Origin: Acidimicrobiia bacterium
Lineage (GTDB): Bacteria; Actinomycetota; Acidimicrobiia; Acidimicrobiales; Poriferisodalaceae
Assembly (NCBI GenBank): GCA_022827265.1
Contig: JAJDTF010000131.1
Coordinates: 1-64,000, forward strand
Reading direction: 5' to 3'
DNA: 64,000 bases
The position numbers and the translations under genes are program-made. Below are positions 7,480 to 47,321 of the stretch, in pieces. How positions within the stretch are numbered: the first letter of the stretch is position 1; each line of letters opens with the position of its first letter. A model generated the notes under the pieces. It did not search any database. It saw only the letters and a program-made list of their open reading frames with translations, and had not been told where the DNA came from.

Positions 7480-7553
7480 GGGCGATTGGCGCAGTTGGTT
7501 AGCGCGCTTGCATGACACGCAAGAGGTCACAGGTTCGACTCCTGTATCGCCCA
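7480..7553 (+). tRNA. tRNA-Val (GAC)
   Basis: Acceptor GGGCGAT/ATCGCCC, D arm GCGC/GCGC, anticodon stem CTTGC/GCAAG with loop ATGACAC (anticodon GAC), T arm ACAGG-TTCGACT-CCTGT, discriminator A, no encoded CCA. It lies 80 nt after tRNA-Cys and marks the left edge of an accessory patch, a common place for integration, though no duplicated tRNA end was found. Confidence 0.97.
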
Positions 7554-7563
7554 CCCCGGGCTT

Positions 7564-7599
7564 GTTTGCGAATTAGGTGGGTCGATGTTTGCGAATTAG
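7564..7599 (+). repeat. Two-copy direct repeat GTTTGCGAATTAG
   Basis: GTTTGCGAATTAG occurs at 7564-7576 and again at 7587-7599, period 23 nt, immediately after tRNA-Val. The core GCGAAT is shared with the 24-bp repeats at 8085-8180, in the same orientation, so the two clusters bracket the truncated gene at 7816-8019. Confidence 0.7.
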
Positions 7600-7815
7600 C
7601 CTCGAGCGCGCTCTGAGCGGGCGCGATGAGGGCCGAGTGGGCCTCACGCGTCGGGTCGGGGCCTGCCAGACGCTCCCTTGTCAAGCGGGGTGATTCAAGC
7701 TGCTGCGACGCATCGAGCAATGCCGCGACTGACACTCCATGAACTCGGCCGCCATGTCTTGCGTTGCTGTTCTCGGTCGTCCATCAGGACTTCCTCTCAC
7801 CACAAACCCCGACTG

Positions 7816-8019
7816 TCAACAACCTCCGTCAGTCTCAGATCTAGGAGAGGGACTGTCCGAGAAGTACCACCCCTTCGTGGCTCGCTGAAGGAAACCGCTC
7901 CGCGTGAGACGCTCTCGGTGGGTGCGCGACAACTCAGCAGACCGGATCACGCGTCCGTCGCCGAGCACGTGTGCGAGTTCGGCCAACGAAGAGGCCAGTT
8001 TCTCGTTCGGGGTGGGCAC
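7816..8019 (-). pseudogene. Truncated N-terminus of a Fic/AbiEi-like protein
   Basis: A GTG start with an ideal GGAGG four nt upstream begins a 67-codon frame. Residues 5-48 (EKLASSLAELAHVLGDG, ELSRTHRERLTRSGFL, KGWYF) resemble the winged-helix, AbiEi-like N-terminal domain that precedes Fic domains in some bacterial proteins. After WYF the similarity stops and the frame ends at a stop within 15 residues, so the catalytic part is missing. The good start signal with an abrupt end suggests a gene truncated by deletion or rearrangement. The family assignment is from memory of the motif and is moderately sure. Confidence 0.5.
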
Positions 8020-8084
8020 TGGGCCTCCGGCACCGGTATGGCTCTTGCGGCCTGCGAGATCGATGCTAGCCCGCTGTGTGCTCG

Positions 8085-8180
8085 AACCCGCGAATCATGT
8101 TGCGCTCAAACCGGCGAATCATGCTGTGCCCAAGCCCGCAAATTATGCCGAGTGAGAACACGCGAATGGCGAGCTGTCAG
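8085..8180 (+). repeat. Four tandem 24-bp repeats with GCGAAT core
   Basis: Cores GCGAATCATG, GCGAATCATG, GCAAATTATG and GCGAATGGCG start at 8090, 8114, 8138 and 8162, an exact 24-nt spacing. Copies 1 and 2 are closest; copies 3 and 4 are diverged. A 24-nt period would give an eight-residue repeat if translated, but no frame has convincing coding features. Related in core to the pair at 7564-7599. Confidence 0.7.
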
Positions 8181-8526
8181 CTGCCGCAGCCCGAGACAGC
8201 GAGCACATCGGCCGTGCCGCGACTCGAGCGTGCCGTAGCTCCAGCGGGGTCATCTGAAGCACAGGTCTTTGGTGCCGCGCACGTCGGCGTTCTGAACGGT
8301 CCCGCGTCCCGGCGTCGAGGAGTCTTCGCAGGTGGAGCCTCGATTTGAGAGCTCCGCAGGGCGAGCAATGCCGCAGGTCAGGGCGCCAAGCGCTAACTCG
8401 CGAACAAGCCACGCTGCGCTCGGCTCTGAACGGCTGCACGACCGACGGGGCCTGCTGCGAGATGTGGGGCGATGCGTCCGAGAAAATTGTGGTCAGACGA
8501 ACATAAAAATCACGATGAAACACACG
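8181..8526. other. 346-nt stretch with no recognisable gene
   Basis: Open frames here on both strands are rich in Arg, Ser and Ala and lack family motifs and start signals. The last 60 nt become AT-rich towards the DUF4143 gene. Nothing else was recognised. Confidence 0.5.
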
Positions 8527-8553
8527 TAATTTCTATGGTTAGCGGGTAGTCTC

Positions 8554-9867
8554 TTGGCTGTGGACTACGTGAGACGCCACTTGGAAGCGACGCTCGACGA
8601 CTCGCTCGAGGCGTCTCGTGTCGTCGTGCTGCACGGCGCGCGTCAGTCGGGGAAGACCACGCTGGCGCGTCGGGTTGCGCAGCGGCGCGGTGGCTCGTAC
8701 GTGACGCTCGACGACGACGCATCGCGGCTTGCCGCGCTGGACGACCCGATGACGTACCTGTCCAGGTTGCAGGCACCAGCGGTGGTCGATGAGGTCCAGG
8801 TCGGCGGCGACCGCGTCGTGCGGGCCGTCAAGCGTCTCGTCGACGAGTCCGACGAGCGGGGCCGGTTCCTGCTGACCGGCTCCACGAACTTCTTGTCGGT
8901 GCCTGCGATCAGCGAGTCATTGGCCGGCCGGGCACGCATCTTGCGCCTGTTCCCTTTCTCGCAGGCCGAGCTCGGCCGCAGCACTCCGGTCGACATCGCA
9001 GGCTGGTTCGAAGACTGCGAAGTCGAGCCTCCACGCGAGACCGAAGACCGCGCGCAGTACATGAGCCGCTTGTGCAGAGGCGGCTTTCCCGAGGCGGTCG
9101 CACTGTCGCCGCAGCAGCGCCGAGGCTGGCACGACAGCTACCTCGAGACAGTCATCCAGCGCGACGTCACCGAGCTCGGCGACATCCGCCGAGCCGACGC
9201 ACTCGTCGATCTGGCCCGCTGGTCGGCAGCGAGCACCGCAGGCGAGCTCAACGTCCAAGCTGCCTGCGGGCAGCTCGGCATCGATCGGTCCACGTTCGAT
9301 CGCTACTTCGCGTGGCTCCGCACCGTGTTCATGGTCCACACGGTGCCCGCGTGGTCGCGCAAGCACGCCGCCCGCGTCGTCCGGCGGCCCAAGCTGCACT
9401 TCGCCGACACCGGCATGGCAGCGGCGCTGCTGGGCATCGACGCAGACGCCTTGGCCTCACCTACCTCGACAGTCGCCGGCCCCCTGCTGGAAACGTTCGT
9501 GGTGAACGAACTGGCACAGCAGAACGCCGGCGCAGCGGGCGTGCGAATTCACCACTTGCGCGACTACGACGGCAACGAAGCAGACATCGTGCTCGAACGT
9601 CCCGACGGCGCCGTCGCAGCGGTCGAGGTCAAGGCAACGGCTAATCCCGGCGAGAACCACCTCAAACCGCTCCGATGGCTGCGAGACCGCCTCGACCGGA
9701 CCGCGCCAGGCACCTTCCGCATCGGCGTGCTGCTGCACACCGGCCCCCACTGCCACCCCATCGGTGACCGGCTCTGGCTAGCCCCCATCAACACCCTCTG
9801 GAACCAACCAGCGTCGCGCCTCCACCAGATTCAGGCGGCCCCACAGCCTCCACCAAGCCCGGGGTGA
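8554..9867 (+). CDS. AAA-type ATPase with DUF4143 domain (first copy)
   Basis: The 437-aa product has an N-terminal P-loop GARQSGKT (28-35), Walker B AVVDEVQ (76-82) and sensor-like LLTGSTN, then the DUF4143 half with a winged-helix region and a restriction-fold-like end (EADIVLERPDG, VEVKA). Such proteins are widespread, often laterally acquired and of unknown cellular role; some are linked to toxin-antitoxin or defence loci. Start is TTG at 8554 or GTG at 8560; neither has a strong RBS. TAATTT at 8527-8532 may be its -10 box. The last ~20 residues are Pro/Gln-rich and probably unstructured. Confidence 0.85.
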   Translation: MAVDYVRRHLEATLDDSLEASRVVVLHGARQSGKTTLARRVAQRRGGSYVTLDDDASRLAALDDPMTYLSRLQAPAVVDEVQVGGDRVVRAVKRLVDESDERGRFLLTGSTNFLSVPAISESLAGRARILRLFPFSQAELGRSTPVDIAGWFEDCEVEPPRETEDRAQYMSRLCRGGFPEAVALSPQQRRGWHDSYLETVIQRDVTELGDIRRADALVDLARWSAASTAGELNVQAACGQLGIDRSTFDRYFAWLRTVFMVHTVPAWSRKHAARVVRRPKLHFADTGMAAALLGIDADALASPTSTVAGPLLETFVVNELAQQNAGAAGVRIHHLRDYDGNEADIVLERPDGAVAAVEVKATANPGENHLKPLRWLRDRLDRTAPGTFRIGVLLHTGPHCHPIGDRLWLAPINTLWNQPASRLHQIQAAPQPPPSPG

Positions 9868-9984: not shown

Positions 9985-11154
9985 ATGGCTTCTGGGCTGC
10001 TCCCTCGCTCCGCAGCGCTGCTCATCGAGGTTGCCCTTCGGCGGAGCCCGGTCGTGGGGCTCATCGGGCCTCGGCAGTGCGGCAAGACGACGCTCGCGCG
10101 CCAGTTCGTCGCGGCTGACTCGCCGAACTACTTCGATCTCGAGGACCCTCTCAGCCTCGCCCGGCTGGATGAGCCGATGACCGCGCTCGGGCCGCTGTCG
10201 GGCATGGTCGTCATCGACGAAGTGCAGCGCCGGCCAGACCTGTTCGGCGTGCTGCGCGTGCTCGCGGACCGTGACAACAGTCCGGCCAGGTTCCTGGTTC
10301 TCGGCAGCGCCGGCCCTGAATTGCTCCGCCAGAGCGCAGAGTCGCTGGCCGGCCGCGTCGAGTACATCGAGCTCACCGGCTTGCAGGCAAACGAGCTGGG
10401 CGCCGAGCGCATGGAGACGCTGTGGCTGCGCGGCGGGTTTCCGCGTTCGCTGCTTGCCGCCAGCGATAGCGACAGCCTGATCTGGCGCAAGTCCTACGTG
10501 CAGGCATTCGTCGAGCGTGACCTGCCGCAGTTCGGGGCAGGGCTCGCAGTGCCGACGATCCATCGCATGATGCTCATGCTGGCCCACTACCACGGCCAGA
10601 TCGTCAACGTCCGGGCACTCGCGACCACCCTGAGCGTCAGCGAGACCACTGTGCGGCGCTATCTCGATCTGATGGAGCACCTCTTCCTGGTCCGCCAGCT
10701 TCGCCCGTGGCACGAGAACCTCCGCAAACGACAGGTCAAACGCCCGAAGTTCTACTTCCGCGACTCGGGACTCTTCCACCACCTGATCGGGGCCGGCACG
10801 ATGGGCGAGCTGCTCACCGACCCCCGGCTCGGCGCGTCCTGGGAGGGCTTCGTCCTCGAGAAGACGCTTGCCGAGGCGCGTCCCGACCACGCGCACTTCT
10901 GGGCAACCCACGCGGGCGCGGAACTCGATCTGCTGCTCTTTGCGAACGGCCGCAGGATCGGCGTGGAGATCAAACGGGTCGACGCCCCCCGCCGCACGCC
11001 GTCCATGACCGCAGCGCTGAGAGATCTCTCGCTCCACATGCTTTGCGTCATCTACCCCGGCGACCTGCGCTACCAGATCGGCGAGCAGATTGTGGCGATC
11101 CCCGCAGCCGACCCCTTCTCCGCCGACGCAGCAGCGCTCGGGATGGTCGAGTAG
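9985..11154 (+). CDS. AAA-type ATPase with DUF4143 domain (second copy)
   Basis: 389 aa with P-loop GPRQCGKT (28-35), Walker B MVVIDEVQRRP, LGSAGP, a central helix-turn-helix-like part (LSVSETTVRRYLDLME) and a nuclease-fold-like end (GAELDLLLF, IGVEIKR). It belongs to the same superfamily as the preceding gene but is clearly a different subfamily (low similarity outside motifs), so the pair is not a recent duplication. The ATG at 9985 has no RBS but sits 6 nt after a -10 box. Function unknown. Confidence 0.87.
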   Translation: MASGLLPRSAALLIEVALRRSPVVGLIGPRQCGKTTLARQFVAADSPNYFDLEDPLSLARLDEPMTALGPLSGMVVIDEVQRRPDLFGVLRVLADRDNSPARFLVLGSAGPELLRQSAESLAGRVEYIELTGLQANELGAERMETLWLRGGFPRSLLAASDSDSLIWRKSYVQAFVERDLPQFGAGLAVPTIHRMMLMLAHYHGQIVNVRALATTLSVSETTVRRYLDLMEHLFLVRQLRPWHENLRKRQVKRPKFYFRDSGLFHHLIGAGTMGELLTDPRLGASWEGFVLEKTLAEARPDHAHFWATHAGAELDLLLFANGRRIGVEIKRVDAPRRTPSMTAALRDLSLHMLCVIYPGDLRYQIGEQIVAIPAADPFSADAAALGMVE

Positions 11155-21784: not shown

Positions 21785-21789
21785 GCAGT

Positions 21790-21891
21790 GTGCTGATGCG
21801 CGCCGAGAGCCCTGCGCTGAGGCGCGTCCGGGAGGCGCGGTGCTGAAGCGCGCCCAGAGGGCATTGTGCTGAGGCGCGGCCAGGGGGCACC
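21790..21891 (+). repeat. Four tandem ~26-bp imperfect repeats ending at the coaE start
   Basis: Units begin GTGCTGA (21790), GCGCTGA (21814), GTGCTGA (21840) and GTGCTGA (21866); the last three are exactly 26 nt. Each continues NGCGCG(T/C)CC then a purine-rich tail such as GAGAG, GGGAGG, AGAGGG or AGGGGG. The next GTGCTGA in register (21892) is the coaE start codon itself. Every unit supplies a GTG with an upstream purine-rich tract, so copy number could affect coaE translation. Confidence 0.75.
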
Positions 21892-22518
21892 GTGCTGATC
21901 GTCGGTCTGACTGGCGGCATCGGTGCCGGCAAGAGCACTGTCGCGCGGCTGCTCGGCTCCCATGGTGCAGCGGTCGTTGACGTCGACGCGCTCGGGCGAG
22001 AGATCATCGCCCAAGGAGGCACAGCCGTCGAGCCAGTACTCGAGCGATTCGGCGACCACCTGCGTGCATCGGACGGCGGCATCGACCGTCCTGCGCTCGC
22101 ATCGATCGTGTTCAACGATCCCGACGAGCTCGCAGCTCTCAACGAGATCAGCCATCCGGCGATCAACGAGCTCCTCGACGAACGGATCGAGTCCATCGGC
22201 GAGGCTGGCGCGACCGATGTCGTCGTGCTCGACATGGCAGTGCTCACCGAGAGCACGCTGGGCCGCAACACCCGCTTCCCCTACGAGATCGTGGTCACCG
22301 TCGAGGCGCCGCCCGACATACGGCTGGAGCGGCTCATCGAGCGCGGCATGACCTCCGTAGATGCCAAGGCGCGACTGGTTTCCCAGGCAACCGACGAGCA
22401 GCGACGCGAAGTATCCAACTTCGTCATCGGAAACGGCGGTGGGAGCGACGAGTTGGCCGATGCCACGACGAAGCTGTGGGATGCCTTGCGCCGGCTGGCG
22501 GAAGAGCGCGCTGCATGA
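21892..22518 (+). CDS. coaE: Dephospho-CoA kinase
   Basis: Phosphorylates the 3'-hydroxyl of dephospho-CoA, the last step of CoA synthesis. 208 aa with P-loop GGIGAGKS (residues 8-15), VVDVDALGREI, HPAINELLDERI and VEAPPDIRLERLIERGM. Normal family length. Start GTG at 21892 is in register with the upstream 26-bp repeats and preceded by AGGGGG. Coupled by ATGA to the next gene. Confidence 0.94.
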   Translation: MLIVGLTGGIGAGKSTVARLLGSHGAAVVDVDALGREIIAQGGTAVEPVLERFGDHLRASDGGIDRPALASIVFNDPDELAALNEISHPAINELLDERIESIGEAGATDVVVLDMAVLTESTLGRNTRFPYEIVVTVEAPPDIRLERLIERGMTSVDAKARLVSQATDEQRREVSNFVIGNGGGSDELADATTKLWDALRRLAEERAA

Positions 22519-24349: not shown

Positions 24350-24803
24350 GGAGGAGCGCCGTTCGGTATGGGAGCGAATGCGCCGCGGCATGGCCGACCA
24401 CAACGCCAAGGCCCCGCGCACGCCCATGGGCATGCCCGAAGTTGTCGATGACGACGACGCGACCGACGCTGCGGATGACACGCCCGACGGAGCGACCGCC
24501 GAACTCGTGCTGGAGCGCATCCATCACTACCGGGACACCATCCGCAGCTACCAGGTTCTCATTGAGAACCAGCGAGTCGGGCAGGTCCGCGACGACCAGA
24601 CCGAGCACTTCGTACTGCGTCCAGGCAGCTACACGCTGCGGCTGCAACTGCTGTGGATCTTCAGCCCCAGAGTGGTCGTCGAGCTGCCCGCCGGCACCGA
24701 GACGCGTCTGATCTGTGGCCCCAACGGAGGGATCCTGCAAGCGTGGCGCCTCTTCTTCGCCCCGACGACGGCGATCTTCCTCCGCATGGCGGAGGAAGCG
24801 TGA
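24342..24803 (+). CDS. Hypothetical protein (153 aa), beta-rich
   Basis: The N-terminal 50 residues are charged and probably disordered (MAEEERRSVWERMRRGMA, then an acidic run DDDDATDAADD). The remainder looks beta-rich with a hydrophobic stretch (YQVLIENQRVGQVRDDQTEH, GSYTLRLQLLWIFSPRVVVE). GGGAGG precedes the ATG. It overlaps the HAD gene by 8 nt. The end runs into the first copy of a 29-bp repeat, which supplies its stop codon. No family recognised. Confidence 0.7.
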   Translation: MAEEERRSVWERMRRGMADHNAKAPRTPMGMPEVVDDDDATDAADDTPDGATAELVLERIHHYRDTIRSYQVLIENQRVGQVRDDQTEHFVLRPGSYTLRLQLLWIFSPRVVVELPAGTETRLICGPNGGILQAWRLFFAPTTAIFLRMAEEA

Positions 24804-24845
24804 TGCAGTCTCCGCTTGGCGGAGGAAGCGTGATGCAGTCTCCGC
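24787..24845 (+). repeat. Two perfect 29-bp direct repeats, each able to form a hairpin
   Basis: Identical 29-mers start at 24787 and 24817 (period 30). Each begins TGGCGGAGGAAGCGTGATGC and ends GTCTCCGC, so GCGGAG and CTCCGC can pair within a unit. The first copy contains the stop codon of the upstream gene. Perfect identity suggests recent duplication. Confidence 0.85.
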
Positions 24846-24891
24846 CCTGCAGCCGAAGCCTGAGCAGGGGTCAACGGTAGGGTTCGCCGCC

Positions 24892-29014: not shown

Positions 29015-29881
29015 CTAGTGCACCGCCCACGACAGCCAGCGGCCGTCGCGCCGCTCCAGCCGCAGCTTGTGCGAGAAGCACTCCGACAGCGACTCGGCGG
29101 TGAGCACCTCGCCCAGGGGCCCGCACGCCAGCGGCACACCATCGCGCAGCAGCAGCCCGTGGGTGAACGACGGGGGGATCTCGTCGGTGTGGTGGGTCAC
29201 CAGCACCGTTGCCGGTGTCTCGGGGTCCGCGGCCAGCGACTCCAGGCTGGCCACGAGCTGCTCCCGGCCCGCGAGGTCCAGACCGGCGGTCGGCTCGTCG
29301 AGCAGCAGCAGCTCCGGTCGGCCCATGAGCGTGCGGGCCAGCTGCACCCGCTGCTGTTCGCCCGACGACAGCGTGGCGAACGTCCGGTCAGTCAGGGAAC
29401 CGGCGCCCACGCGTTCCAGGCATGCCCGCGCGCTCGATCGGTCGGCATCGGTGTAGGTGTGCCACCACGTCTCCAACGCGGCGTAGCGCGCAGTCATCAC
29501 GATGTCGAGGGCGCTGATATTCGGCCGGAACTGGTCGCGCAGTGACGAGCTCGCCAGTCCGATGCGCCGCCGGTGTTCGCGCACATCGACGGCACCCCAC
29601 CGCTCGCCCAGCACCTCGACGGTGCCAGTGGTGGGGAAGCGGTACAGCGACAGGATCTTGATGAGGCTGGTCTTGCCCGATCCGTTCGGTCCCAGCACGA
29701 TCCACCGCTCGTGGGGAGCGATCTGCCAGTCGAGCGGTCCCAGCACGGTGGTGCCGTCGTAGACGACGGTCACATTCCGCAAGGACGCAGTCACATTCCG
29801 CAGGGACGCGGCCACATGCCGCAGGGAGACTGCCGACTGGGCTGAAGGCCGATCTGCGGGCAGAGGCTTGGCGTCACTCAC
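29015..29881 (-). CDS. ABC transporter ATP-binding protein
   Basis: 288 aa with Walker A GPNGSGKT, signature LSSGEQQRVQLARTL, Walker B LLLLDEPTAGLD and H-loop VTHHTDE. The sequence resembles stand-alone ATPases of the YlmA/iron-type group, with GLASSSLRDQF after the Q-loop region. No permease partner is adjacent. The N-terminal extension carries a seven-residue repeat (SLRNVTA) encoded by three 21-bp DNA repeats, so the true start of the ATPase core may follow it. Gap of 6 nt to the exporter gene upstream. Confidence 0.87.
   Translation of the reverse strand: MSDAKPLPADRPSAQSAVSLRHVAASLRNVTASLRNVTVVYDGTTVLGPLDWQIAPHERWIVLGPNGSGKTSLIKILSLYRFPTTGTVEVLGERWGAVDVREHRRRIGLASSSLRDQFRPNISALDIVMTARYAALETWWHTYTDADRSSARACLERVGAGSLTDRTFATLSSGEQQRVQLARTLMGRPELLLLDEPTAGLDLAGREQLVASLESLAADPETPATVLVTHHTDEIPPSFTHGLLLRDGVPLACGPLGEVLTAESLSECFSHKLRLERRDGRWLSWAVH
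29771..29833 (-). repeat. Three 21-bp tandem repeats inside the ABC ATPase gene
   Basis: Units at 29771-29791, 29792-29812 and 29813-29833 share CACATTCCGCA(A/G)GGACGC; the third is diverged. They keep the reading frame and encode RNVTASL, RNVTASL and RHVAASL in the N-terminal extension. Confidence 0.85.
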
Positions 29882-46703: not shown

Positions 46704-47321
46704 ATGGCCGAGCCAGACGAACTTGGCGAGGTACGCGACGAGCTTCCGGAGGACTTGGACCGAGGATTTGTCGGCGCGTACAAGTTCCCCGACAATTCGC
46801 GGCGCAAGATCACCGGAGCGCTGTGCTTTGCGGTGGGCGTCTGGGCTGCGACGGCAGCGGTCGCATTGGGCGGCGATGCGGTGCTGCTCAACACCGGGGT
46901 GGCCACCGGCGGCGTGCTGCTTGCTCTCGTCGGCATCTACCAATTCGCCGCGGGTCGCCGGTTTGCGGTCAACGAGAACGAGGCGCTGGTTGCCGCCGTT
47001 GCTGATGTCGGTTTCGCTGTGGGGCATGCCAGTGCCCAGCTGGGCTGGCGCGGCTGGATGAGCCGCCCCACATGGCGCGTGCTCGTCTATTCGGCGGAGG
47101 ATCCGCCCGACACGCGAGGCTTGGTGATGGTGGACGCGCTGAACGGCGCTGTGCTGGAGAAGTGGGTCGAAGACAATCCCGAGACCTGGATCGAGACGGC
47201 CTCGGACCCTGATGCTGCCGACGAGGATGAGGCCGCTGCCGACGAGGATGAGGCCGCTCCCGACGAGGATCAGGCCGGCATCGAGACCAGCGCGACAACG
47301 GCACCCGGCGACAGGGGCTGA
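46704..47321 (+). CDS. Membrane protein with acidic repeat tail (205 aa)
   Basis: An acidic start, YKFPDNSRRKITG, two membrane helices (about residues 38-75: ALCFAVGVWAATAAVALGG, GVATGGVLLALVGIYQFAAG), a ~90-residue soluble domain (RPTWRVLVYSAEDPPDTRG) and an acidic tail with three copies of AADEDEA-type repeats. No family recognised, but its place between mshC and the PIP-synthase-like gene suggests an envelope role. Ends 2 nt before the next gene. Confidence 0.7.
   Translation: MAEPDELGEVRDELPEDLDRGFVGAYKFPDNSRRKITGALCFAVGVWAATAAVALGGDAVLLNTGVATGGVLLALVGIYQFAAGRRFAVNENEALVAAVADVGFAVGHASAQLGWRGWMSRPTWRVLVYSAEDPPDTRGLVMVDALNGAVLEKWVEDNPETWIETASDPDAADEDEAAADEDEAAPDEDQAGIETSATTAPGDRG
47214..47276 (+). 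repeat. Three 21-bp tandem repeats encoding an acidic tail
   Basis: GCTGCCGACGAGGATGAGGCC type units at 47214-47234, 47235-47255 and 47256-47276; the last differs at two bases. In frame, giving A-(A/P)-D-E-D-(E/Q)-A. Confidence 0.85.

Follow-up and report, generated by a model that had tools for sequence, protein, structure and literature searches.

The region behind tRNA-Val

The window, i.e., the whole stretch of 64,000 nucleotides that was analyzed, carries a tRNA-Val gene (GAC) at 7480–7555 on the plus strand, and behind it short repeats, gene remnants and two ATPase genes follow each other up to position 11154. Homology covering the tRNA gene stops at most 14 nt from its 3′ end in nine of ten sister genomes and continues to 7652 in the tenth (G001). 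Directly behind the tRNA gene lies cluster 1 (7563–7599, plus strand), where the original prediction had placed a pair of 13-bp repeats with a period of 23. The pair is present and is in fact an exact 14-mer, TGTTTGCGAATTAG, at 7563–7576 and again at 7586–7599, with a spacing of 23 bp; a diverged pair (GGTGAGTTAG / CGCGAGTTAG) occupies its place in G001. Sites at which an exact 14-mer is repeated inside about 40 bp number five in the 64 kb, cluster 1 included. A short multicopy repeat of about 26–39 nt (7654–7692, no strand assigned) reads about GGCCTGTCAGACGCTCCCTTGTCAAG and has copies across several genomes of the genus (loci L295–L303). Positions 7743–7844 on the plus strand hold the 3′-end remnant of a coding sequence that ends in LALLFSVVHQDFLSPQTPTVNNLRQSQI and a stop codon, also given as LALLFSIVHQDFLSRETPTVNNLRQFQI and a stop, with recurrences at L100–L104. 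The last 88 nt of this remnant were found at full length at five loci in three sister genomes and partially elsewhere; they precede a DUF4143 gene in L100 and L101, and in L102 they follow pieces of a DUF4143 gene. The remnant stops at 7844, where a 5′ fragment of a Fic-family gene breaks off. This fragment (7843–8019, minus strand) retains about 59 codons, and the Fic catalytic domain is missing.

Cluster 2 (8077–8172, plus strand) lies upstream of the Fic fragment and consists of four units of about TGTGCTCAAACCCGCGAATCATGY. Their cores start at 8090, 8114, 8138 and 8162, which is an exact spacing of 24 bp. Identity to unit one is 100, 83 and 75% for the first three 24-nt units (8077–8148), and the fourth (8149–8172) has hardly more than the core left and keeps the register. 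The four predicted repeats are therefore real, the last of them mostly decayed, and both clusters lie on the plus strand, which bears out their predicted common orientation. The array has a TRF score of 82, and a comparison with dinucleotide shuffles gave P = 1/301, the floor of the test. Single GCGAATNATG-like matches are not enriched in the window (14 versus a shuffle mean of 13.3), and folding of three short repeats gave no clear signal above shuffles.

A repeat of up to 83 nt (8332–8414, minus strand) matches the 3′ flank of an AbiEi–AbiEii operon; one such operon copy is found in the same genome (contig C79), and in G003 the repeat stands beside a decayed operon. A single transposon with TIR-like ends at 7564 (plus) and 8405 (minus) was considered and rejected, because the copy at 8393–8405 sits in this AbiE-operon flank repeat. 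Several repeated-gene fragments are contained within 7556–8484. Two genes for AAA_14–DUF4143 ATPases follow on the plus strand, at 8554–9867 and 9985–11154. Both match PADLOC models of PDC-S01, a candidate defence family (E = 3.5e-137 and 5.2e-87, respectively), and both have weak HTH matches below the Pfam cut-offs. The first is preceded by a 23-bp array of its own (8483–8545, plus strand) with the units TGGTCAG, a decayed unit and TGGTTAG. A scan of viral contigs with both ATPases found no relatives.

The original prediction described two clusters with a common GCGAAT core that bracket a truncated Fic/AbiEi-like gene and suggested an old array. A single array around the gene is not supported, and a common origin of the clusters was dropped because their periods differ (23 versus 24 bp) and each resembles the arrays of another gene family: cluster 1 resembles the 22–23-bp arrays of DUF4143 genes, e.g., CGAATTAG (L245) and TTTGCAATTAG (L262), and cluster 2 has the 24-bp period of Fic genes. 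The GCGAAT core common to both is probably a coincidence. By these resemblances, the pair at 7563–7599 is probably a relic of the array of a lost DUF4143 gene, and the best reading of 8077–8172 is the decaying array of the broken Fic gene. The truncated Fic start itself is real, with 85% identity over 59 amino acids to a longer frame of a sister genome; the supposed likeness to AbiEi found no significant profile match among the N-termini scanned.

Arrays upstream of Fic genes

Conservation in relatives was observed for the 24-bp array, which was found again in two further species of the genus and in one genome of another family of the order. In G007 (contig 3, L086/L087) the array lies 5′ of the start of the same Fic gene, whose reading frame extends over 390 codons until the contig stops, and the same ATPase gene follows in divergent orientation. 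In G001, a third species, the array and the ATPase gene are present on contig C134, and a Fic gene was not found on that contig. In G357, from the other family, a close copy is flanked by the 3′ ends of two convergent frames, one of them a different Fic gene, and so does not lie at a promoter. With respect to their Fic genes, the arrays of the window and of G007 face the opposite way from the GCGAA arrays of L133, L141, L151 and L179. As for further copies within the genome, which is 93% complete, two GCGAAT motifs at such spacing occur at six places, and only the window's two clusters were recognized by eye as arrays. A loose search for any two nearby GCGAAT motifs was uninformative because 71 of 99 genomes match it, and a tighter pattern matched 10 of 397 genomes of the order, among which only the window's genome, G007 and G357 were judged to have an array of the same kind.

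A blind pattern scan for GCGAATNATG twice at the cluster spacing in a collection of 84,980 genomes returned 48 stretches. Frames were inspected at ten of these, and three have a Fic gene of the window's family behind the array. In Gammaproteobacterium UBA5109, Marinomonas arctica and Candidatus Endobugula (L133, L141 and L151), three to five units of about AATAAGCGAATAATG stand directly before a gene for a full-length homologue (518 aa) of the Fic protein that is truncated in the window; in the compared part, two of the three have the same sequence. The ends of IS21-type transposons were considered as an account of the GCGAATAATG arrays and rejected, as the three clearest arrays, those of the same three loci, precede Fic genes instead. 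Seven other stretches of the blind scan (L121, L129, L135, L139, L142, L152 and L154) look like short arrays by eye. The one in L154, at about 590–690, consists of four repeats with a 23-bp period and a GCGAATA core near an acyl-CoA-ligase-like frame; the contig is filed under Bifidobacterium breve, and its GC-rich genes give the impression of being foreign to that species.

The Fic proteins of this family combine an N-terminal part that has an HTH-like sequence with a class-II-type Fic domain. Pfam matches to Fic were obtained for L133 (E = 4.5e-13) and L141 (E = 9e-13); the window fragment is without the Fic domain, and the G007 frame ends at the contig end. The family consensus contains the catalytic-type motif HPYMDGNGRTGR and, upstream of it, SLSIEG. 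The former matches HxFx(D/E)GNGRxxR, which we take to be the class II Fic motif, and the latter matches N-terminal (S/T)xxxE(G/N), presumably the class II inhibitory motif. A published example of the inhibitory motif is SARIEG (PMC9755527). By these motifs, the full-length homologues carry the marks of putative class II Fic AMP transferases. PADLOC gave matches to SoFic, PDC-S24 and PDC-S04 for the full-length L133 protein and no match for the cut G007 frame. The N-terminal part has no meaningful Pfam match; AbiEi profiles matched none of the three N-termini scanned, and an hhalign comparison with AbiEi was not significant (E = 0.087, probability 0.7%). The structure prediction had a pLDDT of 45, too poor for a structure search.

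The Fic N-terminus was found in 2 of 39 genomes of the family, the window's own included. A longer query found weak matches in 11 of 296 genomes of the phylum, likewise including the own one, at 22–37% identity (85% for the own copy). In plasmids, tblastn returned 194 Fic records, 74 of them covering at least 80% of the query. Thirteen of the 194 records, taken from among 60 listed and picked by hand for organism spread, were combined with one viral contig into a set of 14 loci that were not chosen via the array. Twelve of these have an upstream array at P ≤ 0.01, ten of them with a best period of 24 and two with 23; no such array was obtained for Bacteroides thetaiotaomicron or for a truncated Agrobacterium gene. 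With the five loci that had been found through the array or its neighbourhood (the window, G007, L133, L141 and L151), 17 of 19 loci are significant at P ≤ 0.01, and the best period is 24 in 15 and 23 in three. Of the controls, none of 17 downstream regions reached P ≤ 0.05, and two of 19 distal upstream regions did, one of these with P ≤ 0.01.

The core of the Fic arrays varies by lineage (AAGCGAAAT, AAAACCTAA, AAAACTTG, ACCTAGC, ACGTGTA, AAATTAGTG, GTAACTG, TAAGCTAA). Six Fic proteins whose arrays have a GCGAA core have RSA(D/E)LSR in common in the HTH-like segment, and four of the six also have SRTHRERL. No simple code relates protein to core, since a Sulfitobacter protein with a CCTAA core has SRTHRERL too.

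Arrays upstream of DUF4143 ATPase genes

DUF4143 ATPases form an expanded family, with 27 matches in this genome and 4 to 41 in ten other genomes of the genus. The sample for the genus comprised 60 of 208 matches, taken from the best-scoring ones in four genomes; 59 had a usable frame (L238, which had none, was dropped), two of these were left out for an incomplete frame, and the remaining 57 were grouped at 60% identity into 36 clusters. In the 300 bp upstream of each gene, the best of all periods from 15 to 32 bp was determined, and regions that ran off the contig were dropped. Start codons were assigned without a gene caller, by a rule that used the distance to the P-loop and favoured ATG, and strands were entered by hand. 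Control genes were long GC3-rich frames of the window, likewise chosen without a gene caller and with both DUF4143 genes of the window removed.

The best upstream period is 22–23 bp in 26 of the 36 clusters. Such a period came out best less often in the controls: once among 36 downstream regions, twice among 33 distal upstream ones, three times among 36 gene interiors and three times among the upstream regions of 34 other window genes (P = 4e-8 for the last against 26 of 36, Fisher's exact test). Taken singly, the arrays are significant at P ≤ 0.01 in 11 of 36 clusters and at P ≤ 0.05 in 16. The corresponding control counts at P ≤ 0.01 are 0/33 (distal), 1/36 (downstream), 0/36 (inside) and 2/34 (other window genes), and at P ≤ 0.05 they are 3/33, 3/36 and 4/36 for the first three. 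One of the two significant regions among the other window genes is a tandem repeat at 21785–21898 (26/52 bp) upstream of a frame at 21892–22515; further tandem repeats of the window are at 24780–24867 (30 bp), 29769–29827 (21 bp) and 47214–47277 (21 bp).

Twelve of 353 plasmid loci, hand-picked for organism spread over five phyla, were examined in the same way. Eight have an upstream array at P ≤ 0.01, with a period of 22 in four, 23 in three and 32 in one (Treponema), whereas at P ≤ 0.05 the controls gave 0 of 12 downstream and 2 of 12 distal upstream. The period alone does not separate the two sides in this sample (8 of 12 upstream versus 3 of 12 downstream, P = 0.10, Fisher's exact test). 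In the phylum set of 29 loci outside the genus, the best period is 22–24 in ten, five of which are significant at P ≤ 0.01, and three more genes reach this level with a period of 32; P ≤ 0.01 was also reached by one downstream control among 29 and by two distal upstream ones among 26. The arrays are a strong feature of the genus, are frequent among the sampled plasmid genes and depend on the clade elsewhere. A 32-bp upstream period was seen in four DUF4143 genes (L316, L317, L326 and L292). The proteins of L316 and L317 share the start ..WK.SPRRKPLILNG, and L318 and L319, which start similarly, show no such repeat.

Ten groups of related DUF4143 genes were aligned. The core outlives the spacer, most clearly in L253, L278 and L231 (CAAACTGTAG), and L225 has a different number of units from L265 and L245, to which it is related (TTCCGAATCAG); the remaining groups are too alike, too different or single. 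In the window, the array of the first ATPase gene is not significant (P = 0.46), and in its orthologues the array has P ≤ 0.02 in four of five and 0.056 in the fifth, with the best triple shifted by one unit in one of the four. Because this gene has its own 23-bp array, the 24-bp cluster is not needed to explain it. No array was detected upstream of the second ATPase gene (P = 0.87). The plasmid loci L284 (Rhodoferax) and L292 (Treponema) are annotated with a Fic-family gene immediately ahead of the DUF4143 ATPase gene; Fic and DUF4143 ATPase genes are likewise neighbours in the window, but divergent.

Proposed gene-specific operator arrays and alternative explanations

Arrays of both families have at least three direct repeats with a period of 22–24 bp, mostly within about 200 bp of the start codon. 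The core of the unit, roughly 7–10 bp long, is common within an array and among orthologues and differs between paralogues. The arrays thus have a defined position and period, are specific to their gene and are scarce downstream, and it is well supported that they are cis elements of the Fic and DUF4143 genes. The repeats in the window may then be relics of gene-specific autoregulatory operator arrays of such genes, a reading to which we give a probability of about 0.6. The product of the gene would bind one unit per monomer, head to tail, and the bound product would repress its own promoter. Self-binding and repression are suggested by the position of the arrays, the head-to-tail units, the weak HTH matches of the ATPases and the precedents of AbiEi/Rv2827c and CccR. 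A toxin- or nuclease-like gene could in this way be kept quiet until its repressor is titrated or changes state. In the window, the Fic gene would have been broken with its 24-bp array left to decay, and the 23-bp pair behind tRNA-Val would be the leftover of another array whose gene is gone.

Several observations count against autoregulation: the arrays of the window and G007 face the other way, a copy in G357 lies orphaned between convergent frames, a recognizable AbiEi domain is lacking, the fold is poorly predicted, and the Fic locus of B. thetaiotaomicron is negative. The thinner pattern of DUF4143 genes outside the genus, and the failure of the period alone to separate the two sides in the plasmid sample, also count against it. 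In addition, across 37 arrays the cores are similar to the extent that the whole proteins are related, and the HTH segment adds nothing to this (partial r = 0.04). This absence of detectable covariation, together with the orientation of the window array against its Fic gene, would suit operators that are bound by a regulator encoded elsewhere, either a host factor or another paralogue. Such an outside regulator is unlikely, since paralogues have different cores and many separate regulators would be required, and plasmids of several phyla carry the arrays next to these very gene families. We consider it somewhat less likely still that the arrays are substrates of the gene product rather than operators, e.g., DNA marks, sensing sites or bait for a Fic or nuclease activity. 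PDC-S01 joins an ATPase to a PD-(D/E)XK-type domain (PMC12988326), so that a DNA site near the gene could be its recognition target. Against this, most arrays are found within 200 bp of the gene on its promoter side, and few on the opposite side. To our knowledge, Fic enzymes are not nucleases, yet the layout of their arrays is identical.

The alternative that both clusters are the ends or internal repeats of a single mobile element inserted at tRNA-Val draws on the loss of homology near the tRNA 3′ end in the sister genomes and on the repeated-gene fragments behind it. It is improbable given that the periods differ, that elsewhere arrays of this class stand on a single side of their gene, and that in G007 and G001 (contig C134) the contig with the 24-bp array shows no match to the tRNA-Val region, which points to a separate occurrence. 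Related repeats on both sides, as expected of transposon ends, were not found, the arrays being upstream with no enrichment downstream. Chance or low-complexity repeats can hardly be entertained: single GCGAATNATG-like matches are indeed no more frequent than in shuffles, but the spacing is exact, the shuffle test is at its floor, and the recurrence of the array in other species refutes this reading. Among the roles that the original prediction had offered, a candidate protein-binding array fits a class that stands upstream, and rarely downstream, of Fic and DUF4143 genes; a remnant of a mobile unit fits too, as these genes are common on plasmids and 7556–8484 holds fragments of repeated genes. 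For a recombination substrate no evidence was found: a protein search of 7556–8553 that covered Fic, DUF4143 and AbiE gave the Fic fragment as the only convincing match.

Operators of a comparable kind have been described. AbiEi, of the type IV toxin-antitoxin system AbiE, and Rv2827c bind 23-bp inverted repeats in their own promoters, AbiEi with monomers on the repeats and with negative autoregulation as the outcome (PMC7319586). The analogy with the arrays described here would be that of a DNA-binding protein of a toxin system with 23-bp repeats in its own promoter. The AbiEi repeats are, however, inverted and number two or four, whereas our arrays are direct, with at least three units, a core that differs gene by gene and a period of mostly 24 bp (Fic) or 22–23 bp (DUF4143), and the putative binding part is fused to a Fic enzyme or an ATPase, unlike in AbiEi. 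CccR, a class II Fic protein of Yersinia, represses its own promoter via two 10-bp boxes (PMC9755527). It resembles the Fic family studied here as a self-repressing Fic enzyme fused to an HTH domain, but the HTH is C-terminal, the protein is a dimer, and the site consists of two 10-bp boxes, inverted and separated by 26 bp, rather than a direct-repeat array. Plasmid iterons and CRISPR arrays are likewise regularly spaced direct repeats; the present units differ from both in being degenerate, with a core of about 7–10 bp, gene-specific and tied to Fic/DUF4143 genes. The units of cluster 2, moreover, are 75–100% identical over the full 24-nt period and leave no separate spacer, unlike a CRISPR array.

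The autoregulatory operators linked to toxin and defence genes are thus a known kind, and what appears to be new here is the private direct-repeat array. PDC-S01 has been ranked fourth in frequency among the defence systems of prokaryotes, and most PDCs still await validation (PMC12988326); the accessible part of that description makes no mention of upstream arrays. Among the matches listed for DUF4143, COG1373, PDC-S01, AAA_14, Fic and AbiEi in the titles and abstract openings of open-access PMC papers, no such arrays are described, nor was anything found on the control or trigger of PDC-S01. A private array before many PDC-S01 genes and before a widespread plasmid-borne Fic family would provide a candidate DNA ligand for each protein. 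The arrays could also help to separate paralogues and to recognize decayed copies, as the repeats outlast the gene in the window. A more far-reaching proposal, which we put forward tentatively and regard as rather doubtful, is that the PDC-S01 ATPases and this Fic family share an operator architecture with a private core per paralogue, which would let tens of paralogues in one genome be regulated separately and may include a built-in sensor. In the sensor version, the protein would rest on its own array until invading DNA or a phage product upsets the complex, which would free or trigger it.

An AbiEi–AbiEii operon of the same genome (L106, 2724–4297) was also noted, in which the AbiEi match is weak and the AbiEii match strong. 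An inverted repeat (TGCGAGGAA..TTCCTCGCA, about 2696–2724 of L106) reaches the AbiEi start, as might be expected of an AbiEi operator.
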